From Ariolimax columbianus (taxonomy: Eukaryota; Mollusca; Gastropoda; Stylommatophora; Arionidae): DNA of 64,000 nt. Location: NCBI GenBank assembly GCA_036924085.1, contig JAVGWX010000008.1, forward strand, positions 56,322,814 to 56,386,813, written 5' to 3'. The notes under the pieces are model-generated. The model ran no database searches. It was not told the origin of the DNA and saw only the letters and a list, made by a program, of their open reading frames with translations. Positions 8,884 through 64,000 of the stretch are shown here, piece by piece (positions within the stretch are counted from its first letter, which is position 1; every line of letters begins with the position of its first letter). The translations under genes and the position numbers were made by a program.

Positions 8884-8885
<2 letters not shown>

Positions 8886-8951
<66 letters not shown>

Positions 8952-10961: not shown

Positions 10962-11165
10962 TACTCTAAAAATGCTTGCTGAAGTCGGATGTGTTGGACC
11001 GAAAGGTGCAAATATCGCAGTCAAGCTGTAAACTGCGACACAACGCATTCCTTTCTCTGGACTACATTCTGCTACTTAAGCCCTTGTCAGGGTTTGGTAG
11101 TGGGAGATTGAGAATGAACGAAGCCAAGCCAAGCCAAGCCAAGCCAACAACGGAACGTGTAATAC
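10962..11165 (+). mobile_element. SINE with (AAGCC)n tail
   Basis: Contains the shared core GCTGAAGTCGGATGTG, then GTGCAAATATCGCAG and TGTAAACTGCGAC, and a 3' half matching 21902-22161 (GGTAGTGGGAGATTGAGAA). The tail is AAGCC repeats. No clear tRNA-like A and B boxes are visible upstream, so it may be 5'-truncated. This is the uninterrupted form of the SINE broken at 1475. Confidence 0.65.
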
Positions 11166-26400: not shown

Positions 26401-27220
26401 CATACGCATAGTCAAAACGGCTTATTAGAGCTAGATACATGACCAAATGGGAAACCGAACATACTGGCTACACCAAAAACGATGCCTATTACCAGCTGAA
26501 CAGAAGAGAGCAGGTCGTGGTCTTCAGACTTCGCACTGGCGACAATAGACTGAGGTACCACCTATCCAACAAATTGAAGATAGGTGGAACCGACGAATGC
26601 CCGTGTGGTACCGGGAAAATGACTGCAAAACTGCCCAACATTCGAGGATCAGAGAGAGCAGATGTGGCCATCACCAGTGGCAACACTAGACAAGCTCTAT
26701 GGCAGTGTCGACAGCCTCAGGATGACCGCTGCCTTTTTCGAAAAAATAATGGTTACTGTCTGACTGCGTACGATGAAGAAGAAGAAGAAGAAGAATATGT
26801 AGTCCCTGGTCCCTTTGTCTTTTCTAAAACCTATTTCGATCACGGGAATTTCAGATTCAAATGTTTTCTCTATCCTTCTTAATAGGATCCGCAAGAGTAT
26901 CTTGCTAGCGTATTTGATTATCGCGATAGTTTGGTAGTTTGTGCACAGCTTTAGATTGCCTTTTTTGGGGAGAGGAATATAAATTGATTTCTTCATGCTT
27001 CTATCCACTCTGCGCTGTGCCATATCCGTTTACGCAGATTGTGATAAATCGAACACTGGTCTCCCCTCCTGCTTGTAATAGCTCTGCTTGGATATCATCA
27101 CATCCTATCTTGTTGCTGTATATTTTCTATGTCCTTACACGTGTCCAGTATATATCTTCTTTTATCTTTTCTTTATTCTCGTCTATATTTTCTTGCACAG
27201 TTTTTGGGACCAATGACACG
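23488..27220 (-). pseudogene. RTE/CR1-like LINE, interrupted by a truncated I-like LINE
   Basis: Minus-strand RT fragments: KSIYIPLPKKGNLK...YASKILLRILLRR and GFRKDKGTRDYI (27023-26805), continuing across the insertion to FNMTNIYEKC...CFIDFTKAFDTVKH (24598-24422), then KGVRQGCILSPYLYNIYVE (24422-24078). A C-terminal segment with KCKYFGHIKRH and GKRGRGRPRRRWYQDI lies at 23769-23488. Removing the insertion and one 12-bp duplication restores the frame exactly between DYI and FNM. Several stops remain. The part from 23761 to 27220 is present again in the right-hand repeat (34660-38119), but the C-terminal 23488-23760 is not. Confidence 0.85.
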
Positions 27221-27495
27221 TAAAGAAACTATCAATGACATCTGAGTTTTGCTAGAGAAATCTAAAGCAATTAATGGTATTACAAGATAGTCTCTGTTCT
27301 GGAATTAGCATGGCAGTAAATGTAGAGTTAGAACAAAGCACACACAGGATTTGGAAACAAACACAAATGTAGCGGGTAGAAGTAAAGATCACAATTGATG
27401 AAGGTCAGAGCATAGTGTATTTGTATTGGAAATATGTTTTCCACAGAGCGATCAACAGATTTGTTGATTGATTAATTGAGTTGGTTGATTGATTT
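23761..27495 (+). repeat. Long direct repeat X, left copy (3,735 bp)
   Basis: Starts at TTTCTCCATCTAGGG and ends at TTGGTTGATTGATTT. It is repeated at 34660-38394 with a constant offset of 10,899 bp. Differences noticed: 23968/34867, 25213/36112, 25832/36731 and 27131/38030. The repeat ends exactly where the (TTC)n tail of LINE copy 2 begins. It cuts through the middle of the RTE/CR1-like element, so its ends are not transposon ends. Confidence 0.95.
24611..26792 (+). mobile_element. 5'-truncated I-like LINE relative with target-site duplication
   Basis: Plus-strand remnant of the same LINE family as copies 1-4. It starts in the RT domain (GKDKTDPNGY, motif NGYRPISLLS), followed by VWVDLEKAFDEVWK, VPQGGVLSPTLF and MFADDLAMW. 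RNase H remnants (AYTDVSVTNTTQ, with the motif's G changed to V) and an EEADRL segment follow, ending with a stop and (GAA)n tail. Stops interrupt it after NLTIA, in RNase H and elsewhere, and frameshifts are present near the C-terminus. GAATATGTAGTC at 24599-24610 and 26793-26804 is a 12-bp duplication. It is an ordinary truncated LINE insertion, older than the flanking duplication that copied it. Confidence 0.92.
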
Positions 27496-27519
27496 CTTCT
27501 TCTTCTTCTGCGTACACAG

Positions 27520-30500: not shown

Positions 30501-31428
30501 GTTTGTAATTCCAACGTGGGAGCGGTTTTGTTTCCTGTGGGCCTACTTCCATGTCAATGGTTAGCCTGATCGGCCTGTGGTCGCTACCTGCCAGTTGGTT
30601 TAGCACCTGGCGGTCTATTTTATAGTGTATGTCCTGTGTGGAGAAGGCCAAATCTGGAGTCGAGGTGGTATGCCATGTTCTTGAATAGAAGCTAGGGCTG
30701 TCCTCCGGCCTATTGATTAGGGAGAGATTTGCATCTATCTCCCAATCTTCCACTTCGTCACCTCTGCTGTCTGTGTCAGAGTATCCCCATCTCTCCGAGT
30801 GGCTGTTGAAATCTCCAACCACTATGCAGTTGGAGTCTCTGACCTCCATACTCGAGAGCGATAGGTCTCTGTTTGGTGGTCCGTACAGATTGAAAATGCG
30901 GAGCTTCGTCTCTTGAGCCATTATGTCAACTCCTACAATTTCTGCTTGTCCGGTGTGATTGACAGGTACCGCGCTACTCGGTATGCTGTTTCTGGTCAGT
31001 ATCAGGACCCCTCTTTTGTGGCCTTCTCTATCTAGACGGAAAGTCTGGTATCCTCTGATTGAGAATTTATGGTTATTGTTGAGGTGCGTTTCCTGGATAC
31101 ATGCCACGTCAATCTTACCTTCATGCAGGTGATGTGTTAGGGAAAGTTTTTTGTTAATGACTCCCTCCGCATTCCACTGTAATATTCTGAGGGTCTTGAA
31201 GTTTTGGCCAATAGTCGTTTCCCCATAGCCATGTGCCTTGACTCCACGACACATGGGTGGGTGACCACCAGTAGTCAAGGGTGGGCCCCTTCGAGGCGTG
31301 GGGCCCGGCGCTATCGCTGCCTGGCGGGTCTCCTCAGGATGAGCGCCATACGTTTTTCGAATAGGTTGTGCTGCCATCATTCTGTGATTTACGTTGCACT
31401 GTTTTGTTAGGCTTGCGGCCCCGTGCAT
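27520..31428 (-). pseudogene. LINE ORF2, copy 2: full length with one in-frame TGA in RNase H
   Basis: Reading frame of 1,131 codons, then TGA (28033-28035), then 170 further codons in the same frame to the natural stop. Endonuclease spans about residues 80-292 (QWNAEG 84-89, QET 112-114, GDFNSH 205-210, SDH 282-284). RT spans about 520-800 (VDLEKAFD with D655, VPQGGVLSP 712-720, FADD 743-746). RNase H lies from about 1035 (D1042, E1082, D1108). The TGA replaces a Cys codon (TGC in copy 1) and separates the third RNase H acidic residue from the EEAD segment and the C-terminal Cys-His motif. Endonuclease and RT could still be made. It is probably an inherited nonsense mutation, since copy 4 shares it. 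Confidence 0.9.
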
Positions 31429-31575
31429 CCGATTTCAACAGGCGTTTCTGTAGGGATGCCCTCCTTAGCCTTTGGCTGTCCCCAGCCTATCTGCAAGGCA
31501 GCAGTTGTTTACGATCAGAGTTTTCTCTCCTATGGAAGTTGTCTTACCAGACTATCGAGTCTTCACTACTCGTGT

Positions 31576-31957
31576 CTATAGGGTGCAATGATGGTATGTG
31601 ATATATGAGATGGACTGGTTTACCCGGAAGAGAGGCAGTCCAGTGTGTCTGTATCCCAGGATCGTCACGTCCTGCCAGAAACGTAGCATTTGCATGTGAG
31701 TGGGGTATCTCTTTTTCCCTTTATTTTCTTGGCTTCTATGCAGGGATGGTACGCCTAGCATTCCCCGCCACCTGGGGTGTTGACACAGTGGGGCAGGTGT
31801 GCAATGTCCGCTGGTCTGCATCTCTTCTGCGTCCAGCATGATAGTTATGGCTGATAACGTACAGAGGTAGATATCGTAACCGGAGTGCATTTAGCCAGAG
31901 GACAAGCCTGGTAATGTCGCAGAGATGTTGATCGCCTGGTGTGCGGACAACTCTCAT
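31576..31957 (-). pseudogene. Leader reading frame (132-codon type), frameshifted, copy 2
   Basis: Same frame as 5547-5945 and 55429-55827, but a 2-bp deletion near 31848 (within GATAGTTATGGC) splits it into overlapping pieces. This shows that loss of the frame has been tolerated in one otherwise well-preserved copy, weakening the case that it encodes an essential protein. Confidence 0.4.
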
Positions 31958-32136
31958 GGTCAGTGGTTGAGTCTTGACAGTTCACAGTGTGGTGGCTGCT
32001 CTACTGTTTTCGACACCCCGACCAGGTTCTAAGTCTTTGGTTGGTGTTTTTCGCACCCCATCGCCGTATAGGGTGAGTATCAAGCAGTTTTCCGCCCGCT
32101 TTGATTTGCGGGCGGCAAGGACCTCTTACTGTGGCT

Positions 32137-32400
32137 CTACCTGATAGGGCTGGGGCGCAAGCCCCAGGTCCCGAGCATGTAGGAGCCTCCCATTGCAGTG
32201 GTGCTGAGATTTTGGGCGGGATTGCGGCTTTCAAGGGTTCGGCCGTAATCCCCCACATGGTAGCCTCGCGCCCTTGGCTTATCAGCCTGGTACGTGAACC
32301 AAAGTGTCTGCGGCTCCTCTCGATTTGAGCTGGTTTTCCGTAGCAACGCCCTGTCATTTGTAGGGTAAAACTGACCTGTCTTCAGATCTATTTCCAGCAC
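32137..32400 (-). CDS. Conserved leader reading frame, 87 codons, copy 2
   Basis: Counterpart of 6124-6390 and 54984-55250, one codon shorter through a 3-bp deletion after MLEID. Basic, no recognised domain, uncertain coding status. Confidence 0.3.
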   Translation of the reverse strand: MLEIDLKTGQFYPTNDRALLRKTSSNREEPQTLWFTYQADKPRARGYHVGDYGRTLESRNPAQNLSTTAMGGSYMLGTWGLRPSPIR

Positions 32401-32982
32401 CCGTTCACTATTTGGTCAGACGAATTTATTGAGGGCTTTTGTTTGTCAATGACCAGGTATTTGAAATCTGCGGAGTTAAACACGATTTCCGTAGCGTTCT
32501 TTCATTTGAGCTGACTTGTCGTCCGTGAGTCTAATACCAGCGTACGTTCATTATTAGACCCAAACGGCAGTGCTCTCAATTTGTCAGTTGTTCTACAGTA
32601 TTGGCGTGTTCAGTCTAATTAAGCCGCAGGTTCCACACCTGGTGGTGCCCTTCCGTCAATTCCCTTAGCGAGACAATCAAGTTTCTTAAAGGGTAGCCCC
32701 AAAGATTTTCGAGGGTCTAATTCCAGCACATGTTCTCTATTAGACCCCACTAAGGTGTACTTTTTGATAGTCATTCTGCAGTATTGGCGTGGTAAGTTAA
32801 CTTAGGTCTCAGGCTCCACTCCTGATAGTGCTCTTCCGTCAATTCCTTTATCAAACACTGGATGCAGACAAAACCGAGCCACAGGGGACATAACCCCAGA
32901 TTTCTGGGGGTCTAAGTCCAGCACCAGTTCCATATTAGACTCCAGAAGAGTGGTCTCGGCATGTCAATCATTTCAGTGTTGG
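32350..32982 (-). repeat. Tandem LINE leader: hairpins and 18S-like segments, copy 2
   Basis: Same four hairpins and two 18S-like segments as copy 1, with a few substitutions and small indels. The junction with true 18S is at the same base (after AACACGG), followed by CCAACACTGAAATGATTG as in copy 1 but with one substitution (GACATGCC for GCCATGCC). Confidence 0.85.
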
Positions 32983-33006
32983 CCGTGTTGAGTCAAATTA
33001 AGCCGC

Positions 33007-33055
<49 letters not shown>

Positions 33056-34222
33056 TTTGCAACCATACTTCCCCCGGAACCCAAACACTTTGGTTTCCCG
33101 GAAGCTGCCCGCAGAGTCATCGAAGCAACTCCTGCGGATCGCTAGTCGGCATCGTTTATGGTCAGAACTACGACGGTATCTGATCGTCTTCGCGCCTCTG
33201 ACTTTCGTTCTTGATTAATGAAAACATTCTTGACAAATGCTTTCGCAGTAGCTCGTCTTGCGGCGATCCAAGAATTTCACCTCTAACGCCGCAATACGAT
33301 TGCCCCCGTTTGTCCCTGTTAATCATTACCTCCAGTTCCGAAAACCAACAAAATAGAACCGAGGTCCTATTCCATTATTCCATGCACCATTATTCAGGCA
33401 GCCGAGGCCTGCTTTGAACACTCTAATTTTTTCAAAGTAAACGCGCCGGCCACCCAGGACGCTCAGCGAAGAGCACCCGTGGGAGAGAGCCGGCAGACGG
33501 TAGGGCAGGAGACAACGGGCAGTGAACCGGCGCGAGCCGGACCGCCCGCCTGCGCCTGAGATCCAACTACGAGCTTTTTAACTGCAACAACTTTAATATA
33601 CGCTATTGGAGCTGGAATTACCGCGGCTGCTGGCACCAGACTTGCCCTCCAATAGATCCTCGTTAAAGGGTTTAAAGTGTACTCATTCCAATTACGGGGC
33701 CTCGAAAGAGTCCCGTATTGTTATTTTTCGTCACTACCTCCCCGTGCCGGGAGTGGGTAAGTTGCGCGCCTGCTGCCTTCCTTGGATGTGGTAGCCGTTT
33801 CTTATGCTCCCTCTCCGGAATCGAACCCTGATTCCCCGTTACCCGTTACAAACATGGTAGGCATGTCACGTACCATCGACATTTGATAGGGCAGACATTT
33901 GAAAGATGCGTCGCCGGCACATGAGGCCATGCGATCAGCACAAAGTTATCCAGAGTCACCAATGGGGACGCCGCAACCCCGCGAGGGGAAACGACGATTG
34001 GTTTTGAACTAATAAAAGCGCTCTTTCCGCGAGGGTCGGAGCTTGGTAAGCATGTATTAGCTCTAGAATTGCCACAGTTATCCAAGTAGGATCGTGTCAT
34101 CTAAGGAACCTCGACTGATTTAATGAGCCATTCGCGGTTTCACCGTGAGACAGTGTGAACTTAGACATGCATGGCTTAATCTTTGAGACAAGCATATGAC
34201 TACTGGCAGGATCAACCAGATA
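32983..34222 (-). rRNA. Truncated 18S rRNA (5' two-thirds), copy 2
   Basis: About 1,240 nt of 18S on the minus strand, from TATCTGGTTGATCC (34222) to AACACGG (32983), then LINE leader. Nearly identical to copy 1 and truncated at the same position. Not part of an rDNA array. Confidence 0.93.
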
Positions 34223-34659
34223 TCTGTCGGAGACGTACGTACAGCACACACCGGTCGGCGGAGGAAGGGTGTGTAAAAAGCCTCGCTGGGACGACGGCCG
34301 CAGGGACCGACTGACGGGACGGACGGTTTGTTCCACCCGTCCCTCACTCCGTCGACCTAGGACCGCCTGACAGGGGCCTCCCACACGCACCAGACGACCG
34401 ACCGACCGGGCTCGCTCGAGGAGGGATGGCAGCGCTCTGTGCAGAACGGATCCCAACGACCTCGGCGACGAATTTCACTGGGACTAGAGACACAATTTGG
34501 CCTGCCCTTCTTCTCCGTAGGGAGAACGCAGGGCCTCGAGGCAACGATTCCTGCTTTCCATTTGCCGGTCACAAGCTCTTTGCGAGAGTCGGACCACCAG
34601 CGAGACGTACTGTCGAGCTCTGCTATAAGCCTTAGATAAATCACCACGGACGGACCACG
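34223..34659 (-). other. 5' external transcribed spacer fragment, copy 2
   Basis: Matches the ETS of copy 3 and extends 260 bp further upstream than copy 1, stopping at CCGTCCGTGGTGATTT-side sequence where repeat X begins. Several small GC-rich frames here are fortuitous. Confidence 0.8.
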
Positions 34660-34976
34660 TTTCTCCATCTAGGGTATTCTGGTGATTTTTCCGTAACATT
34701 TTAACTAGAAGGATTCGATTCTTTGTCTAGAAGTTTTGGTAATCGTCCATGATTCGCAGTCATTAAGCATTCACATGAAAAACACAGGCTCTAAAGACTT
34801 TTACTTTTGTCGTTTTGTTGGTGCTCTGCCATAATTTCTTGAGGTTGTTCAGTCTCTGCATTGCCATGGCTATTCTTCTTCTGATTTCTCTCGATCAGTC
34901 GCCATTCTTGTTAATTCTGTAGCCTAGATTTTCAAAATGTGTGACCTGATCTATTTCCTCACCACCCACTGTAAAT

Positions 34977-37900
34977 TTATGCTGATATTGTGTTTTTTTC
35001 GGTGGTCATTATCTTTGTTTTGTGTATGTTTATGAACAGGTTTTGATCTTTACTGTGTCTATTTACAGCATAAATTAGCTGTTCTAGCCGTTCTGCACTT
35101 TTTGATAGTATCACTGTGTGGTCTGTGTATCGTAACTCTGGAATCTCGTACCATCCAATCGTAAATGTATCAAAACTGTCAATGTTCTCGTCTTCTCTAA
35201 CATTTCTCATTACACATTCCACATATATGTTGTATAGATAAGGTGAGAGGATACATCCCTGTCTTACTCCCTTTTGTACTGCAAACCTGATGTTTGCCCA
35301 GATACTCGGAAAGCGGCTCATTAATCTTGGTATAATGTTTCAATGAGATGTATAATGTGCACAGGAAACCCCATTTCTTTCATGATGTTCCACAGATTTT
35401 GATGTTTTACCGTATCAAATGCCTTGGTGAAATCAATGAAACATGTGGGCAGGTCTACATTAAACTCTCTACATTTTTCATAGATATTCGTCATATTGAA
35501 TATGTAGTCGAAAGGAAAAGACAAAACAGATCCAAATGGATACAGGCCTATCAGCCTACTGAGCTGTGTCGACAAACTGATGGAACGTATGATAAACACC
35601 AGACTGATGTGGCATCTGGAAGAAAAACGCATATTAATTCCACAGCACGCAGGCTTTAGAGAGCACAGATCCACTGAGGATCAGGTCATCCTCATAGCCA
35701 AGGAAATAGAAGAAGATGCCTACCAGGAACAGAAACACACAGTAGCGGTTTGGGTGGACCTGGAAAAGGCATTTGACGAAGTCTGGAAAGATGGACTTAG
35801 AGACAAGCTAAGAAGAAGTGAAGTGTGTGGGAAAATGTATAAGTGGATCAACCACTACCTCAAAAACAGAACGGCCAGAGTTCAAGAACAAGGGCAGATG
35901 AGCAAAAAGGTGACACTTGAGCAGGGAGTACCCCAAGGAGGAGTACTGTCACCCACACTCTTCCTGGTGTATATAAATGACATTACAGAGAATATACCAA
36001 GGAGAGTCCATAGCGCAATGTTTGCAGACGATCTGGCTATGTGGACCTCTGAAAAGAATCTCACCATAGCATGAAATCGGATGCATCAGGCCCTAACATC
36101 GCTGGAAGAGTGGGCGAACTCATGGCTGGTAAAAATAAACGAGGAAAAAACTACATGTACAATATTCTCGCTATCAATCAAACCCCAAAACACCAAATTA
36201 AGTCTAAACGGCAAATACCTGCATCCAAACGACAACCCAAACTACCTGGGAGTCACATTTGATCGGCGCATGACATGGACAAGTCAGATCGAGAGAAACC
36301 GAATGAGAGCCGCAGAAAGAATGGCAATCATGAGGAAACTTGCTGGCACAAGCTGGGGAGCAGACGAAAGTATACTAAAGAAACTGTACACTGGAAGAGT
36401 GAGACCAGTTCTCGAGTATGGCATTGCGGCATGGACAACAGCAGCAAAGGCGAACTTCGATAAAACTAGCAAACTCCAAAACCAAGCCATGAGAGTTATA
36501 ACAGGAGACATGAAGTCAACGCCAATTTGTAGAATTTGAAAAGATTACAAAACTGCAATCCATGACCGACAGAAGAGACTGCAGAGCCCAGCTGCAATCA
36601 GAAAAACTCAGAAGACTGACTAACCATCCAATGCCCCAAGACTAAACAATTTCGGAAATGGGAAACTAAAGCGAAGAAACTTTGCAGAAATAGCCAAAGC
36701 AAAGATGCACGAAAACCCCATCCCTACTGTTCGACAACCTACCTGGAGGCAGCATATATTTCCAGAGGTGGTAGAAAATATACCAGGTATTGGAAACAAA
36801 AACTGCCAGTCAGAAAAAGAAAGAAGAGATACTACCCTGAGTTATATAACGGAAAACTGTCCAAGCATGGACTGGACTCATGCATACACCGACGTTTCCG
36901 TAACAAACACAACACAGAACGGAGGGGCAGGAGCATTTCTGAACCTACCAAATGGCAGAAAAATAACAATGTAATTCGCTACTGGAAAATACACAAGCAA
37001 TTTCAGAGCTGAGGCAGAGGCACTGAGGGCGGCAGTGGAAGAAATGGTGACAGGTAAAAGGAATGAAAGCCACATAGTCCTGCTTACAGATGCTCTGGCC
37101 GAAGTCACAGCACTGAAAAGCCAGAAAAATACTGAACTTAATGATTTAAGAGCAGAACTCTGCCAACTATGCCAGCAGTCTGCCCCAAAAAGGGTAGTGG
37201 TGCAGTGGGTTCCATCTCACTGCAACATCCAAGGCAACGAGGAGGCAGACAGACTGGCAAAAAAAGGTGCAAAACTACCACAACCAGATACTAGTATGAC
37301 ATACGCATAGTCAAAACGGCTTATTAGAGCTAGATACATGACCAAATGGGAAACCGAACATACTGGCTACACCAAAAACGATGCCTATTACCAGCTGAAC
37401 AGAAGAGAGCAGGTCGTGGTCTTCAGACTTCGCACTGGCGACAATAGACTGAGGTACCACCTATCCAACAAATTGAAGATAGGTGGAACCGACGAATGCC
37501 CGTGTGGTACCGGGAAAATGACTGCAAAACTGCCCAACATTCGAGGATCAGAGAGAGCAGATGTGGCCATCACCAGTGGCAACACTAGACAAGCTCTATG
37601 GCAGTGTCGACAGCCTCAGGATGACCGCTGCCTTTTTCGAAAAAATAATGGTTACTGTCTGACTGCGTACGATGAAGAAGAAGAAGAAGAAGAATATGTA
37701 GTCCCTGGTCCCTTTGTCTTTTCTAAAACCTATTTCGATCACGGGAATTTCAGATTCAAATGTTTTCTCTATCCTTCTTAATAGGATCCGCAAGAGTATC
37801 TTGCTAGCGTATTTGATTATCGCGATAGTTTGGTAGTTTGTGCACAGCTTTAGATTGCCTTTTTTGGGGAGAGGAATATAAATTGATTTCTTCATGCTTC

Positions 37901-38119
37901 TATCCACTCTGCGCTGTGCCATATCCGTTTACGCAGATTGTGATAAATCGAACACTGGTCTCCCCTCCTGCTTGTAATAGCTCTGCTTGGATATCATCAC
38001 ATCCTATCTTGTTGCTGTATATTTTCTATTTCCTTACACGTGTCCAGTATATATCTTCTTTTATCTTTTCTTTATTCTCGTCTATATTTTCTTGCACAGT
38101 TTTTGGGACCAATGACACG
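34977..38119 (-). pseudogene. RTE/CR1-like LINE remnant, duplicate copy
   Basis: Duplicate of the minus-strand element at 23761-27220, again split by the truncated I-like LINE. GVRQGCILSP at about 35270, FIDFTKAFDTV near 35440 and PLPKKGNLK near 37860 are all present. The C-terminal end is missing because the repeat boundary at 34660 cuts it off against rDNA spacer. Confidence 0.85.
35510..37691 (+). mobile_element. 5'-truncated I-like LINE relative, duplicate copy
   Basis: Second copy of 24611-26792 inside repeat X, with the same stops and the same flanking GAATATGTAGTC. One substitution gives the family-typical EEWANSW here, where the left copy has EELANSW. It is a product of the flank duplication, not an independent insertion. 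Confidence 0.92.
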
Positions 38120-38394
38120 TAAAGAAACTATCAATGACATCTGAGTTTTGCTAGAGAAATCTAAAGCAATTAATGGTATTACAAGATAGTCTCTGTTCTG
38201 GAATTAGCATGGCAGTAAATGTAGAGTTAGAACAAAGCACACACAGGATTTGGAAACAAACACAAATGTAGCGGGTAGAAGTAAAGATCACAATTGATGA
38301 AGGTCAGAGCATAGTGTATTTGTATTGGAAATATGTTTTCCACAGAGCGATCAACAGATTTGTTGATTGATTAATTGAGTTGGTTGATTGATTT

Positions 38395-51090: not shown

Positions 51091-51836
51091 ACTGATCTCT
51101 CCCCTCCCTATAAACACAATGTGAGAACATTTGATCAACGCTGAATCGACGCCGACTCTCTTCGACTATGTGATCTGCCTCTCTCAGGAAAGTCTCGACT
51201 GCTTCTACAACTTTACCTGGAAATACGAAGCGGGAAAAGACATCATCCTTCGTGAAATCTTTCTCGAAGCCGACCGCGCAACAACTGACTGCGACAAATC
51301 GCCTCCATCAACAATACACGCTACCTGGGGTTCTGCCATCAAGTCTGGTCATGGACGGTCAGAGGGATATGTTCTGTTTGCCTAGTCGGATTACTTGACC
51401 TTAGCATATACACAAGTCTCGAAGTTGTAAGTGCTTTCAAATAATGGTTTTCTCTTCATAGCATTAACTATGAGTTTCTTATATTCGTACTCTAGGAAAT
51501 ATTTCTTATATAATTCAGTTAGTGAAACATCCTTGATGTTTTGTCTTGAGATCTCAGTTATCATGCGGTTAAATGAATCTAATTTGCAAAGAAGGTAGAG
51601 GATGTACCACGTTATCATCAAGTGGAGAAGAGAATATTTTGCATTTGCGCCTTTTGTTATAAAATTATGGAACCTGGTGTTGAATTTGTCATCAGACTTC
51701 AACTTGTCCACAAATGAATTGCAATTAAAAAAATAATTGTTTAGATTCAAATTGTGTGTGAAAATGATAAGTGTTGACTTTCCCAGAATCGAAGTTTATT
51801 ATGAAATGACTTAATGTATTCATACAGTACAACCAT
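51091..51836. other. No recognisable feature
   Basis: Short open frames (for example 51131-51385) without recognised domains. The right end, ATACAGTACAACCAT at 51822-51836, may be the target-site duplication of LINE copy 3. Confidence 0.45.
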
Positions 51837-52471
51837 CTGGGGTAGTTGTCTCGCCGCAGCGACTCAATTTCAACCAGTGTTCGTAAAGCGATCTCAGTCC
51901 CGCCAGGCGGAGCGATAGCGCGGGCTTGTGGAAAACGCGCGCCTGCCTTTCCCCGTAGAGCGAATTGGGTGCGGTTTGTTGCAGCGGCTCCTCCACCGAG
52001 GTGCGCTGGTCTGGTCCGTATCAGGAAACGTGGTCCGTCCGTGGTGATTTATCTAAGGCTTATAGCAGAGCTCGACAGTACGTCTCGCTGGTGGTCCGAC
52101 TCTCGCAAAGAGCTTGTGACCGGCAAATGGAAAGCAGGAATCGTTGCCTCGAGGCCCTGCGTTCTCCTACGGAGAAGGGCAGGCCGGCAGGCCAAATTGT
52201 CTCTAGTCCCAGTGAAATTCATCGCCGAGGTCGTTGGGATCCGTTCTGCACAGAGCGCTGCCATCCCTCCTCGAGCGAGCCCGGTCGGTCGGTCGTCTGG
52301 TGCGTGTGGGAGGCCCCTGTCAGGCGGTCCTAGGTCGACGGAGTGAGGGACGGGTGGAACAAACCGTCCGTCCGTCCCATCAGTCGGTCCCTGCTTCCGT
52401 CGTCCCAGCGAGGCTTTTTACACACCCTTCCTCCGCAGACCGGTGTGTGCTGTACGTACGTCTCCGACAGA
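51837..52471 (+). other. 5' external transcribed spacer, copy 3
   Basis: 635 bp immediately upstream of 18S, the longest ETS of the three. It is GC-rich, with runs such as GGTCGGTCGGTCG and CGTCCGTCCGTCC. It matches copies 1 and 2 where they overlap. A pol I promoter could lie in it but none can be recognised by eye. Confidence 0.75.
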
Positions 52472-54229
52472 TATCTGGTTGATCCTGCCAGTAGTCATAT
52501 GCTTGTCTCAAAGATTAAGCCATGCATGTCTAAGTTCACACTGTCTCACGGTGAAACCGCGAATGGCTCATTAAATCAGTCGAGGTTCCTTAGATGACAC
52601 GATCCTACTTGGATAACTGTGGCAATTCTAGAGCTAATACATGCTTACCAAGCTCCGACCCTCGCGGAAAGAGCGCTTTTATTAGTTCAAAACCAATCGT
52701 CGTTTCCCCTCGCGGGGTTGCGGCGTCCCCACTGGTGACTCTGGATAACTTTGTGCTGATCGCATGGCCTCATGTGCCGGCGACGCATCTTTCAAATGTC
52801 TGCCCTATCAAATGTCGATGGTACGTGACATGCCTACCATGTTTGTAACGGGTAACGGGGAATCAGGGCTCGATTCCGGAGAGGGAGCATGAGAAACGGC
52901 TACCACATCCAAGGAAGGCAGCAGGCGCGCAACTTACCCACTCCCGGCACGGGGAGGTAGTGACGAAAAATAACAATACGGGACTCTTTCGAGGCCCCGT
53001 AATTGGAATGAGTACACTTTAAACCCTTTAACGAGGATCTATTGGAGGGCAAGTCTGGTGCCAGCAGCCGCGGTAATTCCAGCTTCAATAGCGTATATTA
53101 AAGTTGTTGCAGTTAAAAAGCTCGAAGTTGGATCTCAGGCGCAGGCGGGCGGTCGGCTCGCGCCGGTTCACTGCCCGTTGTCTCCTGCCCTACCGTCTGC
53201 CGGCTCTCTCCCACGGGTGCTCTTCGCTGAGCGTCCTGGGTGGCCGGCGCGTTTACTTTGAAAAAATTAGAGTGTTCAAAGCAGGCCTCGGCTGCCTGAA
53301 TAATGGTGCATGGAATAATGGAATAGGACCTCGGTTCTATTTTGTTGGTTTTCGGAACTGGGGGTAATGATTAACAGGGACAAACGGGGGCATTCGTATT
53401 GCGGCGTTAGAGGTGAAATTCTTGGATCGCCGCAAGACGAGCTACTGCGAAAGCATTTGTCAAGAATGTTTTCATTAATCAAGAACGAAAGTCAGAGGCG
53501 CGAAGACGATCAGATACCGTCGTAGTTCTGACCATAAACGACGCCGACTAGCGATCCGCAGGAGTTGCTTCGATGACTCTGCGGGCAGCTTCCGGGAAAC
53601 CAAAGTGTTTGGGTTCCGGGGCAAGTATGGTTGCAAAGCTGAAACTTAATTTGACTCAACACGGGAAAACTCACCCGGTCCGGACACTGTAAGGATTGAC
53701 AGATTGATAGCTCTTTCTTGATTCGGTGGGTAGTGGTGCATGGCCGTTCTTAGTTGGTGGAGCGATTTGTCTGGTTAATTCCGATAACGAACGAGACTCT
53801 AGCCTATTAAATAGTTCGCCGGTCCCTCGATGCGCCGGCGCAACTTCTTAGAGGGACGAGTGGCGTTTAGCCACACGAGATTGAGCAATAACAGGTCTGT
53901 GATGCCCTTAGATGTCCGTGGCCGCACGCGCGCTACACTGAAGGAATCAGCGTGGATTCCTCCCTGGCCCGAAAGGGTTGGGAAACCCGTTGAATCTCCT
54001 TCGGGCTAGGGATTGGGGCTTGTAGTTCTTCCCCATGAACGAGGAATTCCCAGTAAGCGCGAGTCATAAGCTCGCGTTGATTACGTCCCTGCCCTTTGTA
54101 CACACACACACACCGCCCGTCGCTACTATCGATTCAGCGGTTCAGTGAGGGCCTCGGATTGGTCTCGGTCTGGTGCGCAAGTGCCGGCACCGTTGGCCGA
54201 GAAGAAGCTCGAACTCGATCGCTTGGAGA

Positions 54230-54281
<52 letters not shown>
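52472..54281 (+). rRNA. 18S rRNA pseudogene, nearly full length
   Basis: Begins TATCTGGTTGATCCTGCCAG and ends with CCTGCGGAAGGATCATTA, the standard 3' end. Two changes strike invariant positions. First, 46 nt are missing at 53648/53649 between two CTTA repeats, removing AAGGAATTGACGG through GCGGCTTA. Second, the universal GTACACACCGCCCGTC near 54098 reads GTACACACACACACACCGCC, eight extra bases. A C-to-T change in CCAGCTCCAATAGCG is also present. Such an rRNA should not function. The missing 46 nt are the core of the segment repeated in the LINE leader. No 5.8S or 28S follows. Confidence 0.95.
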
Positions 54282-54408
54282 TCGGTCTCTCTTTTTTTCG
54301 CCTAGCCTTTTTCCCAACTCTGCAAGGAGGACGGATTTAGACGGGGAGGATAAAAAAGCTGATTGATTATTATTGTACGCAAACGAGAAGCCTATGTCGG
54401 GCTCGGGG
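54282..54408 (+). other. ITS1-like spacer between 18S and LINE leader
   Basis: 127 bp after the 18S 3' end, starting TCGGTCTCTCTTTTTTTCGC and ending at GGGCTCGGGG, before the leader start GAGACCACTCTTC. Its position suggests truncated ITS1; copies 1 and 2 lack it. Confidence 0.5.
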
Positions 54409-55020
54409 GAGACCACTCTTCTGGGGTCTAATATGGAACTGGTGCTGGATTTAGACCCTCAGAAATCTTGAGCTATGCCTCCTGTGGCCCGGTTTGGTCT
54501 GCATCCAGTGTCCTGAAAAAGGAATTGACGGAAGAGCACTATCAGGAGTGGAGCCTGAGGCTCAAATTAACTTAACACGCCAATACTGCAGAATGACTAT
54601 CAAAAACTACACCTTCGTGGGGTCTAATAGAGAACATGTGCTGGAATTAGACCCTCGAAAATCTGGGGCTACCCCCTAAGAAACTTGATTGTCTCGCTAA
54701 GGGAATTGACGGAAGGGCACCACAAGGTGTGGAACCTGCGGCTTAATTTGACTGAACACGCCAATACTGTAGAACAACTGACAAATCGAGAGCACTGCCG
54801 TTTGGGTCTAATAATGAACGTACGCTGGTATTAGACTCACGAATGACAAGTCAGCTCTCAAACACTCAAATGAAAGAACGCTACGGAAATCGTGTTTAAC
54901 TCCGCAGAAACCGCAGATTTCAAATACCTGGTCATTGACAAACAAAAGCCCTCAATAAATTCGTCTGACCAAATAGTGAACGGGTGCTGGAAATAGATCA
55001 TCTGAAGACAGGTCAGTTTT
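54409..55020 (+). repeat. Tandem LINE leader: hairpins and 18S-like segments, copy 3
   Basis: Hairpins at about 54425-54457, 54620-54654, 54803-54838 and (degenerate) 54963-55015. Stems are GGGTCTAA/TTAGACCC, GGGTCTAAT/ATTAGACCC, GTCTAATA/TATTAGAC and CTGACC/GGTCAG. Loops share GAAC and GCTGG. 18S-like segments lie at 54519-54581 and 54699-54761, each ending AACACGCCAATACTG. Stem bases change while pairing is kept in the third hairpin, which suggests selection on structure. Confidence 0.85.
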
Positions 55021-55250
55021 ACCCTACAAATGACAGGGCGTTGCTACGGAAAACCAGCTCAAATCGAGAGGAGCCGCAGACACTTTGGTTCACGTACCAG
55101 GCTGATAAGCCAAGGGCGCGAGGCTACCATGTGGGGGATTACGGCCGAACCCTTGTAAGCCGCAATCCCGCCCAAAATCTCAGCACCACTGCAATGGGAG
55201 GCTCCTACATGCTCGGGACCTGGGGCTTGCGCCCCAGCCCTATCAGGTAG
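54984..55250 (+). CDS. Conserved leader reading frame, 88 codons, copy 3
   Basis: Counterpart of 6124-6390 and 32137-32400; starts in the fourth hairpin. Unknown function and uncertain coding status. Confidence 0.3.
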   Translation: MLEIDHLKTGQFYPTNDRALLRKTSSNREEPQTLWFTYQADKPRARGYHVGDYGRTLVSRNPAQNLSTTAMGGSYMLGTWGLRPSPIR

Positions 55251-55428
55251 AGCCACAGTAAGAGGTCCTTGCCGTCCGCCAATCAAAGCGGGCGGACAAC
55301 TGCTTGATACTCACCTTATACGGCGATTGGGTCCGAAACCACCAACCAAAGACCTAGTACCTGGTCGGGGTGTCGAAAACAGTAGAGCAGCCACCTCACT
55401 GTGAACTGTCAAGACTCAACCACTGACC

Positions 55429-55827
55429 ATGAGAGTTGTCCGCACACCAGGCGAACAACATCTCTGTGACATTACCAGGCTTGTCCTCTGGCTAAATGCA
55501 CTCCGGCTACGATATCTACCTCTGTACGTTATCAGCCATATAACTATCATGCTGGACGCAGAAGAGATGCAGACCAGCGGACATTGCACACCTGCCCCAC
55601 TGTGTCAACACCCCAGGTGGCGGGGAATGCTAGGCGTACCATCCCTGCATAGAAGCCAAGAAAATAAAAGGAAAAAGAGATACCCCACTCACATGCAAAT
55701 GCTACGTTTCTGGCAGGACGTGACGATCCTGGGATACAGACACACTGGACTGCCTCTCTTCCGGGTAAACCGGTCCATCTCATATATCATCTCATATATC
55801 ATCATTGCACCCTATAGACACGAGTAG
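55429..55827 (+). CDS. Conserved leader reading frame, 132 codons, copy 3
   Basis: Counterpart of 5547-5945, same length and nearly identical. It lies 136 bp upstream of the ORF2 start. No recognised domain. Confidence 0.35.
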   Translation: MRVVRTPGEQHLCDITRLVLWLNALRLRYLPLYVISHITIMLDAEEMQTSGHCTPAPLCQHPRWRGMLGVPSLHRSQENKRKKRYPTHMQMLRFWQDVTILGYRHTGLPLFRVNRSISYIISYIIIAPYRHE

Positions 55828-55963
55828 TGAAGACTCGATAGTCTAGTAAGACAACTTCCATAAGAGAGACAACTCTGATCATAAACAACTGCTGCCTTGC
55901 AGATAGACTGGGGACAGCCAAAGGCTAAGGAGGCATCCCTACAGAAACGCCTGTTGAAATCGG

Positions 55964-58900
55964 ATGCACGGGGCCGCAAGCCTAACAAAACAGTGCAACG
56001 TAAATCGCAGTATGATGGCAGTACAACCTATCAGAAAAACGCATGGCGCTCATCCTGCGGAGTCCCGCCAGGCAGCGATAGTGCCGGGCCTCACGCCTCG
56101 AAGGGGCCCACCCTTGACTACTGGTGGTCACCCACCCATGTGTCGTGGAGTCAAGGCACATGGCTATGGGGCAACTTCTATTGGCCAAAACCTCAAGACC
56201 CTCAATATACTACGGTGGAATGCGGAGGGAGTCATTAACAAAAAAACTTTCCCTAACACACCACCTGCATGAAGGTAAGATTGACGTGGCATGTATCCAG
56301 GAAACGCACCTCAACAATAACCATAAATTCTCAATCAGAGGATACCAGACCTTCCGTCTAGATAGAGAAGGCCCCAAAGGAGGGGTCCTGATACTGACCA
56401 GAAACTGCATACCGAGTAGCGCGGTATCTGTCAATCACACCGGACAAGCAGAAATTGTAGGAGTTGACATAATGGCCCAAGAGACGAAGCTCCGCATTTT
56501 CAATCTGTACGGACCACCCAATAGAGACCTATCGCTCTCGAATATGGAGGTCAGAGACTCCAACTGCATAGTAGTTGGAGATTTCAACAGCCACTCGGAG
56601 AGATGGGGATACTCTGACACAGACAGCAGAGGTGACGAAGTGGAAGATTGGGAGATAGATGCAAATCTCTCCCTAATCAATAGGCCGGAGGATAGCCCTA
56701 GCTTCTATTCAAGAACATGGCATACCACCTCGACTCCAGATTTGGCCTTCTCCACACAGGACATACACCATAAAATAGACCGCCAGGTGCTAAACCAACT
56801 GGCAGGTAGCGACCACAGGCCGATCAGACTAACCATTGACATGGAAGTAGGCCCACAGGAAACAAAACCGCTCCCACGTTGGAATTACTAACGAGCCGAC
56901 TGGGACAGATTTGCAATCCTGACAGATGGGCTGTGTGAAACCATCAACACACGACACTCAAAAATGAAGCCCATGGTAGAGAGCCTAAGCAAGGCAATAA
57001 TGCAAGCCGCCACTGAAACCATCCCAAGAGGAGCTAGGAAAAACTATAAGCCCTACTGGAATGATGAGTTGCAGAAAGTGGAAGATGCAGTAACAAATGC
57101 TAGGAACATGGCAGAGCGAGAAAAATCCATGGAGGCAAACATCGCCCTCAAAGCCGCCGCGGCGAAGTACAAACACACTCTCAGGCAAACAGCAAGAGAA
57201 AGCTGGAAAAATAAAACGGAAAGTCTAAACCTGGACAAAGACGGGAACAAGCTATGGAAGCTAGTCAGAGCCATGAACGACGAAACCCCGTCAAATAAAC
57301 AAATTACTATCAAGCAGGGCGAGAACTTGATCACAGGTAAGAAAGCCGCTAACGCCTTTGTCGATCACTATGCCAGAGCAAACCACATCGAGGTCCCTGC
57401 AGATAAGCATACAGACATTAGCGAAGAGCTAAAGGGACACGAAAACATAAATACGGCTCCTGAAGAGCACATGATGGCCAAACTAACAATGCGCGAAATG
57501 GAAGAGGCTAGGAGAACACTAAAGAAAAGGAAATCTCCCGGAAAAGACGGGATAACAAACGAAATGCTGATGGGGCTGGGCCAAACAGCGAAGAGGAAAT
57601 TACTATCAGTCCTTAACCAAAGCTGGAAAAGGGGTATTGTACCCCAGGCATGGAAAGACGCAATACTGGTACCAGTACCAAAAACAGGAAAGGATAAAAC
57701 AGATCCAAATGGATACAGGCCCATCAGCCTACTGAGCTGTGTCGGCAAGCTGATGGAACGGATGATAAACACCAGACTGATGTGGCATCTGGAAGAAAAA
57801 CGAATACTAATTCCACAGCAAGCCGGCTTCAAACAGCACAGATCCACTGAGAACCAGGTCATCCTCATAGCCCAGGAGATAGAAGATGCCTATCAGGCAC
57901 AGAAACACAAAGTAGCTGTTTGGGTGGATCTGGAAAAGGCATTTGACAAAGTCTGGAAGGATGGACTTAGAGTCAAGCTAAGAAGAAGTGATGTCGGTGG
58001 GAAGATGTACAAGTGGATCAACCACTACCTCAAACAAAGAACGGCCAGAGTCCAAGTACAAGGGCAGATGAGCAAAAAGGTGACACTCGAGCAGGGAGTA
58101 CCCCAAGGGGGAGTATTGTCACCCACACTCTTCCTGGTATATATTAACGATATTACAGAGAATATACCAAGAAGAGTCCATAGCTCAATGTTTGCAGACG
58201 ATCTGGCTATGTGGACCTCTGAAAAGAATCTCACCATAGCAAGAAATCGGATGCAGACGGCCCTAACATCGCTGGAAGAGTGGGTGAACTCATGGCTGGT
58301 CAAAATAAACGAGGAGAAAACCGGATGCACAATATTCTCGCTTTCATTAAAACCCCAAAGTACCAAATTAAGTCTAAATGGCAAATTCCTGCAGCCAAAC
58401 GACAACCCAACCTATCTGGGAGTCACATTTGATCGGCGCATGACATGGAAAAGTCAGATTGACAGAAACCGAATGAAAGCCAGAGAAAGAATGGCAATCA
58501 TGAGGAAACTTGCTGGCACAAGCTGGGGAGCAGACGAAGGCATACTAAAGAAACTGTATACTGGAAGAGTGAGACCAGTTCTCGAGTATGGCATTGCGGC
58601 ATGGACAACAACAGCGAAGGCGAACTTCGATAAAGTTAACAAACTTCAAAACCAAGCCATGAGAATTATAACAGGTGGCATGAAGTCAACGCCAATTGTA
58701 GAACTTGAAAAGATTACAAAACTGCAATCCATGACCGATAGAAGAGACTGCAGAGCCCAGCTGCAGTGAGAGAAACTTCGAAGACTGACTGACCATCCAA
58801 TGCACCGGAGACTAAACAATTTGGGAAATGGGAAACTAAAGCGGAGAAACTTTGCAGAAATAGCCAAAGCAAAGATGCACGAAGATCCCATAAACGCACT

Positions 58901-59873
58901 AACAACACCAAAACCCATCACTACTGTACGAAAACCTACCTGGAGGCAGGATATATTTCCAGAGGTGGTAGAAAATATACCAGGTATTGCAAACAAAAAC
59001 TGCCAGACTGAAAAAGAAAGGAGAGATACTACCCTAAGCTTCATAACGAAAAGCTACCCAAGCATGGACTGGACCCATGCATACACCGACGGTTCTGTAA
59101 CAAACACTACACAGAACGGAGGGGCAGGAGCATTCCTGAACCTACCAAATGGCAGACAAATAACACTGTCACTCGCTACTGGTAAGTACACAAGCAATTT
59201 CAGAGCGGAGGCAGAGGCACTGAGGGCGGCAGTGGAAGAAATGGTGACACACAGTGAAAATGAGAGCCATATAGTCCTACTGACAGATGCTCTCGCCGTA
59301 GTCACAGCGCTAAAAAGCCAGAAAAACACTGAGCTTAATGACTTAAGAGCAGCACTCTGCAAACTGTGCCAGCAGTCCGCACCAAAAAGGGCAGTGGTAC
59401 AGTGGATTCCGTCACACTGCAACATCCAAGGCAACGAGGAGGCAGACAGACTGGCAAAAGAAGGTGCAAGACTACCACAAACAGATACCAGTATGACGTA
59501 CGAAGAGTCAAAACGGCTTATCAAAGCCAGATACATGACCAAATGGGAAACCGAACATACTGGTTACACCAAAAACGATGCCTATTACCAGTTGAACCGA
59601 AGAGAGCAGGTCGTTGTCTTCAGACTTCGCACTGGCCACAACAGACTGAGGTACCACCTATTCAACAAATTGAAGATAGGGTGTACCGACGAATGCCCGT
59701 GCGGTACTGGTAAAATGACCGCTGAACATCTGCTGCAGAACTGCCCGACATACGAGGATCAGAGAGAGCAGATGTGGCCATTACCAGTGGAACTGCAAGA
59801 CAAGCTCTATGGCAGTGGCGAGAGCCTCAGGATGACCGCCGCTTTTTTCGAAAAAATAATGGTTACTGTCTGA
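55964..59873 (+). pseudogene. LINE ORF2, copy 3: one frameshift, two nonsense codons
   Basis: Same protein as copies 1 and 2, beginning MHGAASLTKQCNV at 55964. An extra A in the run near 56240 shifts the frame after about 90 codons; the correct frame then continues to a TAA at 56889-56891 (a Lys codon elsewhere) and a TGA at 58767-58769 (a Ser codon in copy 2). The final 357 codons carry RNase H (AYTDGSV, FRAEAEAL, LLTDAL, EEADRL) and CPCGTG...EHLLQNC. RT motifs WVDLEKAFD, VPQGGVLSP and FADD are intact. Only about ten bases separate the natural stop (59871-59873) from the GAA tail, and these contain the palindrome CTGCGTACGCAG. Inactive. Confidence 0.92.
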
Positions 59874-59912
59874 CTGCGTACGCAGAAGAAGAAGAAGATA
59901 CAGCACAACCGT

Positions 59913-61457: not shown

Positions 61458-64000
61458 TTTCTTCTTCTTCTTCTTCTGCGTACACAGTCAGACAGTAACC
61501 ATTATTTTTTCGAAAAAAGCGGCGGTCATCCTGAGACTCTCGCCACTACCATAGAGCTTGTCTTGCAGTTCCACTGGCAATGGCCACATCTGCTCTCTCT
61601 GATCCTCGTATGTCGGGCAGTTCTGCAGCAGATGTTCAGTGGTCATTTTACCAGTACCGCACGGGCATTCGTCGGTACACCCTATCTTCAATTTGTTGAA
61701 GAGGTGGTACCTCAGTCTGTTGTGGCCAGTGCGAAGTCTGAAGACAACGACCTGCTCTCTTCGGTTCAACTGGTAATAGGCATCGTTTTTGGTGTAACCA
61801 GTATGTTCGGTTTCCCATTTGGACATGTACCTGGCTTTGATAAGCCGTTTTGACTCTTCGTACGTCATACTGGTATCTATTTGTGGTAGCCTTGCACCTT
61901 CTTTTGCCAGTCTGTCTGCCTCCTCGTTGCCTTGGATGTTGCAGTGTGACGGAACCCACTGTACCACTACCCTTTTTGGTGCGGACTGTTGGCACAGTTT
62001 TCAGAGTGCTGCTCTTAAGTCATTAAGCTCAGTGTTTTTCTGGCTTTTTAGCGCTGTGACTACTTCGAGAGCATCTGTCAGCAGGACTATATGGCTCTCA
62101 TTTTCACTGTGTGTTGCCATTTCTTCCACTGCCGCCCTCAGTGCCTCTGCCTCTGCTCTGAAATTGCTCGTGTACTTACCAGTAGCGAATGACAGTGTTA
62201 TTTTTCTGCCATTTGGTAGGTTCAGGAATGCTCCTGCCCCTCCGTTCTGTGTAGTGTTTGTTACAGAACCGTCGGTGTATGCATGGGTCCAGTCCATGCT
62301 TGGGTAGCTTTTCGTTATGAAGCTTAGGGTAGTGTCTCTCCTTTCTTTTTCGGTCTGGCAGTTTTTGTTTGCAATACCTGGTATATTTTCTACCACCTCT
62401 GGAAATAAATCCTGCCTCCAAGTAGGTTTTCGTACAGTATTGATGGGTTTTGGTGTTGTTAGTGCGTTTATGGGATCTTCGTGCATCTTTGCTTTGGCTA
62501 TTTCTGCAAAGTTTCTCCGCTTTAGTTTCCCAGTTCCCAGATTGCTTAGCCTCTGGTACATTGGATGGTCCGTCAGTCTTCGGAGTTTCTCTGACTGCAG
62601 CTGGGCTCTGCAGTCTCTTCTGTCGGTCATGGATTGCAGTTTTGTAATCTTTTCAAGTTCTACAATTGGCGTTGACTTCATGCCACCTGTTATGATTCTC
62701 ATGGCTTGGTTTTGAAGTTTGTTAACTTTATCGAAGTTCGCCTTCGCTGCTGTTGTCCATGCCGCGATGCCATGCTCGAGAACTGGTCTCACTCTTCCAG
62801 TGTACAGTTTCTTTAGTATGCCTTCGTCTGCTCCCCAGCTTGTGCCAGCAAGTTTCCTCATGATCGCCATTCTTTCTCTGGCTTTCATTCGGTTTCTCTC
62901 AATCTGACTTTTCCATGTCATGCGCCGATCAAATGTGACTCCCAGATAGGTTGGGTTGTCGTTTGGCTGCAGGATTTTGCCATTTAGGCTTAGTTTGGTA
63001 CTTTGGGGTTTTAATGAGAGCGAGAATATTGTGCACGTGGTTTTCTCCTCGTTTATTTTGACCAGCCATGAGTTCGCCCACTCTTCCAGCGATGTTAGGG
63101 CCGTTTGCATCCGATTTCTTGCTATGGTGAGATTCTTTTCAGAGGTCCACATAGCCAGATCGTCTGCAAACATTGAGCTATGGACTCTTCTTGGTATATT
63201 CTCTGTAATATCGTTTATATATACCAGGAAGAGTGTGGGTGACAGTACTCCCCCTTGGGGTACTCCCTGCTCGAGTGTCACCTTTTTGCTCATCTGCCCT
63301 TGTACTTGGACTCTGGCCGTTCTTTGTTTGAGGTAGTGGTTGATCCACTTGTACATCTTCCCACAAACATCACTTCTTCTTAGCTTGACTCTAAGTCCAT
63401 CCTTCCAGACTTTGTCAAATGCCTTTTCCAGATCCACCCAAACAGCTACTGTGTGTTTCTGTGCCTGGTAGGCATCTTCTATCTCTTGGGCTATGAGGAT
63501 GACCTGGTCCTCAGTGGATCTGTGCTGTCTAAAGCCGGCTTGCTGTGGAATTAGTATTCGTTTTTCTTCCAGATGCCACATCAGTCTGGTGTTTATCATC
63601 CGTTCCATCAGCTTGCCGACACAGCTCAGTAGGCTTATGGGCCTGTATCCATTCGGATCTGTTTTGTCCTTTCCTGTTTTTGGTACTGGTACCAGTATTG
63701 CATCTTTCCATGCCTGGGGTACAATACCCCTTTTCCAGCTTTGGTTCAGGACTGATAGTAGTTTTTTCTTCGCTGTTTGGCCCAGCCCCATCAGCATTTC
63801 GTTTGTTATCCCGTCTTTTCCGGGAGATTTCCTTCTCTTTAGTGTTCTCATAGCCTCTTCCATTTCGCGCATTGTTAGTTTGGCCATCATGTGCTCTTCA
63901 GGAGCCGTATTTATGTTTTCGTGCCCCTTTAGCTCTTCGCTAATGTCTGTATGCTTATCTGCAGGGACCTCGATGTGGTTTGCTCTGGCATAGTGATCGA
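61458..64000 (-). mobile_element. I-like LINE copy 4, 3' part, runs off window
   Basis: Minus-strand 3' portion of the same family, nearly identical to copy 2 (27486-30030), beginning with the (GAA)n tail and the same TGTGTACGCAG 3' end. The window ends inside ORF2, so whether 18S is attached is unknown. Confidence 0.93.
61488..64000 (-). pseudogene. LINE ORF2, copy 4, partial, with in-frame TGA
   Basis: The frame is open from the window edge to TGA at 62001-62003, then continues in frame to the natural stop at 61488. It contains RT (WVDLEKAFD, VPQGGVLSP, FADD), RNase H (AYTDGSV, FRAEAEAL, LLTDAL) and, past the TGA, NEEADRL and CPCGTG...EHLLQNC. The TGA lies at the same Cys codon as in copy 2. 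It differs from copy 2 at few residues (for example LEHGIAAW for LEYGIAAW). Confidence 0.92.

Follow-up and report, generated by a model that had tools for sequence, protein, structure and literature searches.

How do dispersed copies of a long interspersed nuclear element (LINE) come to carry a piece of ribosomal RNA (rRNA) precursor at their 5' ends? This question is raised by a 64,000-nt window of the Ariolimax columbianus genome (GenBank assembly GCA_036924085.1, contig JAVGWX010000008.1, positions 56,322,814 to 56,386,813), in which self-BLAST revealed five copies (c1–c5) of one LINE family. Three of them are full-length: c1 (1476–8405, minus strand), c2 (27496–34659, minus strand), and c3 (51835–59897, plus strand). 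They share the order of 5' external transcribed spacer (ETS), 18S rRNA, leader, open reading frame (ORF) 2, and GAA tail, all in the transcribed orientation. This arrangement, stated in the original prediction, was confirmed by Rfam (SSU rRNA matches at 52472–54281 on the plus strand, 33075–34219 and 7082–8225 on the minus strand), self-BLAST, and a domain search. The different 5' cut-offs in the ETS were confirmed as well: c3 begins at 51835, c2 at 34659, and c1 at 8405, i.e., 637, 437, and 177 nt upstream of 18S. The leader is reached by three of the five copies (c1, c2, and c3), all three of which carry rRNA, and a (GAA)n-like tail ends all five. When the flanks of different copies were compared by self-BLAST, no match exceeded 100 bp (one match of 32 bp connects a c2 flank with a c1 flank); therefore, c1, c2, and c3 are separate insertions and not segmental duplicates. 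The descent of the rDNA-bearing copies from a single segmental duplication, named beside the original prediction as the opposing case, is rejected by the same result.

The junctions between rRNA and LINE are of two types. In c1 and c2, the ETS (177 and 437 nt) is followed by 18S (1,239 and 1,240 nt) and then by the LINE at the identical base, AACACGG/CCAACACTG (in longer context, ...TTTGACTCAACACGG/CCAACACTGAAATG...). Past this base, the Rfam 18S consensus continues while the copies leave it, as determined on c2. A 63-nt 18S piece beside the junction coincides with the Rfam consensus at every base in c2 and has one change in c1. The predicted 18S-to-LINE site at AACACGG is thus found in c1 and c2, but not in c3, where 18S reaches its 3' end, lacking 46 nt between two CTTAA repeats, and continues into 127 nt of internal transcribed spacer 1 (ITS1). 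The c3 leader is joined at GAGACC, 25 nt inside the c1/c2 joining point. The rRNA carried by c3 (ETS-18S-ITS1) amounts to 2,574 nt, and a 13-bp target duplication, in which one base is mismatched, encloses the whole ETS-18S-ITS1-LINE unit. The c3 copy has the composition of an L1-like chimeric insertion, with foreign RNA in the sense orientation 5' of the LINE and a target duplication around the whole; c1 and c2 are sense fusions located between long direct repeats. Given the sense orientation, the ragged 5' ends, the GAA tails, and the 13-bp target duplication of c3, the joining of pre-rRNA and LINE at the RNA or complementary DNA (cDNA) level, followed by reinsertion, is supported. As a lead only, the 46-nt deletion of c3 might be an effect of m1acp3-Psi in 18S h31, which we take to lie at this place in the sequence. 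Reverse-transcription mismatches at the hypermodified U1248 of human 18S are described in the available part of PMC9340255.

The age of the rRNA can be estimated by comparing its divergence with that of the LINE; these tests are post hoc and overlapping, involve three copies, and leave out gapped columns. Two subfamilies, c1 with c3 and c2 with c4, are separated by a synonymous divergence (dS) of 0.079–0.081, with a ratio of nonsynonymous to synonymous divergence (dN/dS) of 0.19–0.23; between c1 and c3, dS is 0.019 and dN/dS is 0.75. Changes unique to c2 number 3/1,177 in 18S versus 34/1,528 in the non-coding LINE, i.e., the leader and 5' untranslated region (UTR) (Fisher 2.8e-6), and 128/5,427 in the whole LINE (Fisher 4.5e-8), the density being about nine times higher in the LINE than in 18S. 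In c1 and c3, 18S and LINE show no significant difference (p 0.26–0.58), as expected of post-insertion mutations. Since the c2-unique changes are far denser in the LINE, the rRNA was acquired afresh near each insertion rather than inherited with it. These counts date the rRNA to after the LINE subfamilies had separated, and its lack of the subfamily split fits an 18S kept uniform in the ribosomal DNA (rDNA) array. A weaker signal in the same direction comes from the ETS, a non-conserved sequence: 8/434 positions are changed between c2 and c3, with 34 expected at dS (P 8e-8) and 16 at the leader rate (P 0.02; Fisher 0.07). For ETS and 18S together, c2 and c3 differ at 17/1612 positions versus 49/1529 (p=2.8e-5); the p-values are 1.7e-5 for c1–c2 and 0.12 within the subfamily. 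The claim that ETS, 18S, and LINE move as one unit does not agree with these data.

The hairpin leader of the original prediction is itself derived from rRNA, containing 18S pieces, 28S-like hairpins, and a 28S 3' domain. Its units are about 180 nt long; there are three in c1 and in c2, whereas c3 has two inner units and part of the outer one. Each unit is composed of a 62-nt 18S piece (AAAGGAATTGACGG...AACACG), a linker, and a 28S-like hairpin. The 62-nt pieces of the c3 inner units are identical to the c2 18S at 54/62 and 57/62 positions, and their origin by chance was rejected (scores of 104 and 92, with a maximum of 28 among 200 shuffles). The 18S piece stops no more than one base away from the c1/c2 junction in each of the units, and the boundary AACACG(G)/CCAAYACTG is seen again in both inner units. 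Using the middle hairpin as a query, the three other hairpins score 50, 42, and 36 (best of 200 shuffles, 28); against a human 28S sequence not drawn from a database record, the leader hairpins score 43, 44, and 38, with shuffle maxima of 32, 36, and 29 (300 shuffles each). Downstream of the units lies a diverged 28S 3' domain extending to model position 3399 of 3401 (RF02543, 61.5–68.7 bits over the three copies); the region 54900–55200 scores 190 against the same human 28S sequence, the best of 300 shuffles being 32.

When the units are compared with each other, the 18S pieces are 77–92% alike and the remainder 57–66% (seven comparisons, Fisher 5e-7 to 0.06). No such contrast is observed for one unit between copies, where 1–5/61 positions of the 18S piece and 3–5/111–121 of the remainder are changed (six comparisons). 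Since the 18S pieces are more alike between units than the rest, they seem to postdate the separation of the units, or have been renewed. Folding of the c1 5' leader unit is no more stable than that of shuffles (z -0.77), and folding of the c3 leader is weakly more stable (z -1.65; one of 20 shuffles as stable); accordingly, we make no claim of a selected structure.

Taken together, these features suggest that the LINE repeatedly forms RNA-level fusions with pre-rRNA, and that the fused cDNA is inserted elsewhere by target-primed reverse transcription. The best explanation, to which we assign a probability of about one half, is a mixed model. Source copies would reside in 18S genes directly after ...CTCAACACGG, and RNA polymerase I (Pol I) would transcribe a 5'ETS-18S-LINE read-through RNA, of which c1 and c2 would be dispersed, 5'-shortened copies. 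The recurrent 62-nt 18S pieces of the leader may preserve earlier 5' junctions, in line with what has been postulated for R2, the RNA of which frequently retains upstream rRNA that anneals to the target. In the case of c3, the reverse transcriptase (RT), having arrived at the 5' region of the LINE RNA, may have jumped onto a pre-rRNA ending in ITS1. Read-through from an 18S-resident LINE is favoured because c1 and c2 share the same junction base despite a dS of 0.079 between the subfamilies, because the junction boundary recurs in both inner leader units, because the 63-nt 18S piece by the junction matches the consensus in c2 although the LINE behind it has diverged, and because all three leader-bearing copies carry rRNA. 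For R2, the accessible portions of PMC3774820 describe RNA cut up to 36 nt upstream inside the rRNA in many species, upstream rRNA tandemly duplicated at 5' junctions, and a 5'-extension model.

Several points weigh against this explanation. The 3' ends of all five copies lie in unrelated non-rDNA sequence, unlike the fixed rDNA sites of R-type LINEs; judged on these five visible ends, the family has no site specificity here, and no copy within an intact 18S gene is seen in the 64-kb window. We know of no I or Ingi element that is rDNA-specific. The predicted 18S-based read-through with reinsertion agrees with the joining at the RNA or cDNA level and gives the best account of c1 and c2, but c3, with its ITS1 junction, cannot derive from a LINE at the AACACGG site unless a template jump or another rDNA insertion site is assumed. 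Residence in 18S leaves the 28S 3'-end segment of the leader unexplained. The inner 18S pieces do not follow the age order of layer-by-layer growth, unit 1 having more changes than unit 2. A search of the junction for an HDV-like (hepatitis delta virus-like) ribozyme was negative with Rfam at gathering scores, the permissive run covering only c3 54280–56000, and with a crude low-power descriptor, which hardly fires on shuffles either, so that its silence says little.

The main competing explanation, which we consider possible but rather doubtful, is that template switching alone produced all three fusions. The LINE RNA would come from dispersed copies; in c1 and c2, the cDNA would anneal to the abundant pre-rRNA at the 18S-like 62-nt piece and be copied through 18S into the ETS, and in c3 the RT would jump end-to-end onto a pre-rRNA cut in ITS1, the leader having recorded previous jumps (28S 3' end, 18S). 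A single mechanism would account for three junctions, for c3 without a second insertion site, and for the lack of site specificity in the five visible 3' ends; the c3 acceptor (ETS-18S-ITS1) would resemble a pre-rRNA processing intermediate, and the 28S segment of the leader stops at the 28S 3' end, the outcome expected of an end-to-end jump. Precedents are available: L1 forms chimeras with 28S rRNA (83% sense, 18 loci, median 269 nt; PMC13174262, part of the text), and in vivo template jumps of R2 to U12 and tRNA are described (PMC3414825, likewise in part). Precedents in R2 thus exist for both read-through and template switching. However, the switch must have occurred in three of three leader-reaching copies, and a 63-nt piece encoded by the LINE should drift; c1 and c2 differ in it at one position, with 2.4–5 differences expected, which is a weak discrepancy (P 0.31 to 0.04).

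It is very unlikely that ETS, 18S, and LINE were inherited and spread as one element, despite the order and orientation alike in three copies and the junction alike in two. The 18S and ETS do not have the divergence of the LINE (the ETS alone reaches only p 0.02–0.07 against the leader rate), the c3 junction differs and includes ITS1, and the idea would hold only if, inside the element, the rRNA changed at a rate several-fold below that of the element's own leader. Still less probable is a segmental duplication or an assembly artefact. A haplotype mis-join could mimic the repeat flanking c2, the copies of which are 99.9% identical; however, the flanks and 5' ends differ in the three copies, as does the c3 junction, c3 and c5 have ordinary 12–13-bp duplications, and the repeats flanking c1 have diverged (3/617 bases outside the minisatellite arrays, plus changes in array length). 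The mixed model of read-through and a template jump can be extended: an apurinic/apyrimidinic endonuclease (APE)/RNase H LINE might reside in 18S and use the Pol I promoter as its own, its leader being a stratigraphy of rRNA captures, and read-through might spread ETS-18S pseudogenes, often with kilobase-scale target duplication. We regard this extension as tentative.

The kilobase-scale direct repeats at c1 and c2 were not noted in the original prediction. c2 is abutted on either side by a copy of a 3,735-bp direct repeat. At c1, about 1.47 kb of the left repeat copy is visible, and the right copy would be 2,636 bp long if it begins at the c1 end. Two of the four insertions with both ends visible (c1 and c2) have target repeats more than 100-fold longer than those of c3 (13 bp) and c5 (12 bp). 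Because its flanking repeats have diverged, mis-assembly of c1 is unlikely; for c2, mis-assembly retains a small residual probability. A model in which the L1 cDNA end is joined to a sister-chromatid break was proposed for a 22.6-Mb tumour duplication (PMC7058536, in the part available). The repeats at the two insertions lend themselves to examining LINE-driven tandem duplication in a germ line.

The family is probably an Ingi-like LINE of the I superfamily, as far as its domains and homologues indicate. The c2 frame matches Exo_endo_phos_2 (4.1e-18), Exo_endo_phos (6.5e-12), RVT_1, and RNase_H, i.e., it combines APE, RT, and RNase H in one frame, as is characteristic of the I superfamily; the R2 clade has a restriction-like endonuclease and no APE domain, whereas the c2 frame carries an APE-type domain. 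In the list of the 120 best out of 1,946 protein matches, identity is 67% at the top, 54% over 78% of the query for a protein of the snail Batillaria attramentaria, and 45–47% for proteins of the snail Littorina saxatilis; by themselves, these matches make a gastropod host probable. The Batillaria match is a lead only toward the putative Ingi placement. In molluscs, the I superfamily is represented by Nimb, Ingi, and one unknown clade (PMC10294476, with gastropod counts in PMC11203168, both available in part). The family resembles the Ingi and Nimb LINEs of molluscs in the endonuclease (EN)-RT-RNase H order and in these homologues; it differs in its rRNA-built leader, none being mentioned for them in the available parts of the two papers. 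The c3 frame has two premature in-frame stops and a frameshift near its start, and the 5' truncation of c5 falls within the ORF. c2 (codon 1132, near 28033) and c4 (near 62001) have an in-frame stop in common within the RNase H region; their common source was therefore probably already truncated there and still moved, or moved in trans.

Searches elsewhere gave 70 loci in genome contigs, ten of which are LINE relatives (26–31% identity over much of the query), the others being short RT matches. These ten lie in bacterial assemblies, six of them labelled as bivalve symbionts, and probably represent host contamination. No relatives with DNA context were found in viral contigs, BLAST of the c3 18S and leader against the available loci gave no match, and an exact 16-mer search matched 31 contigs, which is close to our estimate of the chance expectation.

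Among rDNA elements, R7 is of the APE type. The family would share the 18S target with R7, an 18S-specific R1-type group including R7Ag (PMC6530143 and PMC7265360, in the parts available); however, R7Ag needs a long poly(A) tail (PMC7265360), whereas the tail here is (GAA)n and no site specificity is seen. With R2, according to the available sections of PMC3774820, it would share rRNA co-transcription, upstream rRNA kept at the RNA 5' end, tandem upstream-rRNA duplications at 5' junctions, and 5' extension; R8 is an R2 lineage in Hydra 18S (PMC5035012, in part). Unlike R2 and R8, it has an APE endonuclease and RNase H, dispersed non-rDNA sites, a whole ETS and 18S moved, 28S in the leader, and no ribozyme detected by Rfam or the crude descriptor, neither of which is sensitive. 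In L1/28S chimeras and in R2 jumps to U12 and tRNA, RNA is likewise attached at the LINE 5' end in the course of reverse transcription, for 28S/L1 predominantly in the sense orientation (excerpts of PMC13174262 and PMC3414825). The L1/28S chimeras measure 50–482 nt in the accessible text of PMC13174262; here, the rRNA reaches 2,574 nt and is present on all three leader-bearing copies, and older rRNA layers are found in the leader. No LINE carrying ETS and 18S is described in the titles and abstract openings among the matches listed from the open-licence literature. If the proposed mechanism is true, the dispersed copies would show how a LINE gains an rRNA 5' end, with fresh captures and old layers side by side and comparable. 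The mechanism would link rRNA retention of the R2 type to template switching as in L1, and would be a direct source of 18S pseudogenes with ETS, able to mislead barcoding and rDNA assembly.

Table 1. Positions of the LINE copies, their rRNA parts, and the flanking repeats in the window.
Feature	Positions	Strand	Basis
c1: LINE (leader with 3 units, ORF frames, GAA tail)	1476..6989	-	self-BLAST, ORF list, domain search, unit alignment
c1: 177 nt ETS (8229-8405) and 18S to AACACGG (6990-8228)	6990..8405	-	Rfam, sequence
c1 flanking direct repeat, left copy, cut by window edge	4..1475		matches 9732-11041; ends exactly at LINE 3' end
c1 flanking direct repeat, right copy	8406..11041		9732-11041 seen; 8406-9731 inferred
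c2: LINE (leader with 3 units, ORF, GAA tail)	27496..32982	-	self-BLAST, ORF list, domain search, unit alignment
c2: 437 nt ETS (34223-34659) and 18S to AACACGG (32983-34222)	32983..34659	-	Rfam, sequence
c2 flanking direct repeat, copy 1, 3,735 bp; contains c5	23761..27495		4 mismatches, no gaps vs 34660-38394
c2 flanking direct repeat, copy 2	34660..38394		99.9% identical to copy 1
c3: left target duplication ATACAGTACAACC	51822..51834	+	sequence; 12/13 identical to 59898-59910
c3: 5' ETS of pre-rRNA, 637 nt	51835..52471	+	aligned with c1/c2 ETS; begins directly after target duplication
c3: 18S rRNA, complete minus 46-nt deletion between CTTAA repeats at ~53650	52472..54281	+	RF01960 1481.8 bits, model 1-1831; deletion by c1/c2 comparison
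c3: 127 nt ITS1, joined to LINE leader at 54409	54282..54408	+	directly after 18S 3' end; c1/c2 lack it
c3: leader units; 28S-like hairpins 54424, 54620, 54804; 18S-like 62-nt pieces 54518-54579, 54699-54760	54409..54931	+	local alignments above shuffles, unit alignment
c3: diverged 28S 3' domain copy up to 28S 3' end	54932..55437	+	RF02543 61.5-67.9 bits over 55035/55037-55437; 54932-55173 by alignment to human 28S
c3: remaining 5' UTR, frame encoding EN-RT-RNase H, (GAA)n-terminated 3' end	55438..59897	+	ORF list, sequence, domain search
c3: right target duplication ATACAGCACAACC	59898..59910	+	sequence
c4: 3' part of fourth copy, 99.76% identical to c2, runs off window	61459..64000	-	self-BLAST
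c5: 5'-truncated relative (89% identity), 12-bp target duplication GAATATGTAGTC; sits inside c2 flanking repeat copy 1	24614..26793	+	self-BLAST, sequence

Other features of the window can be noted. It is rich in minisatellites (11890–12830, 17869–18413, 41490–42237, 43485–44352, 46285–47101, and 47354–49250), the units of which are mostly 28–51 bp long; one array is about 1.9 kb in length, and the array at 41 kb is open in several frames. A 257-aa frame at 15278–16051 (minus strand) resembles by eye a fragment of another reverse transcriptase. A dispersed 284-bp repeat is present at 13491–13774 and 41056–41339 in the same orientation, its two copies being 87% identical.

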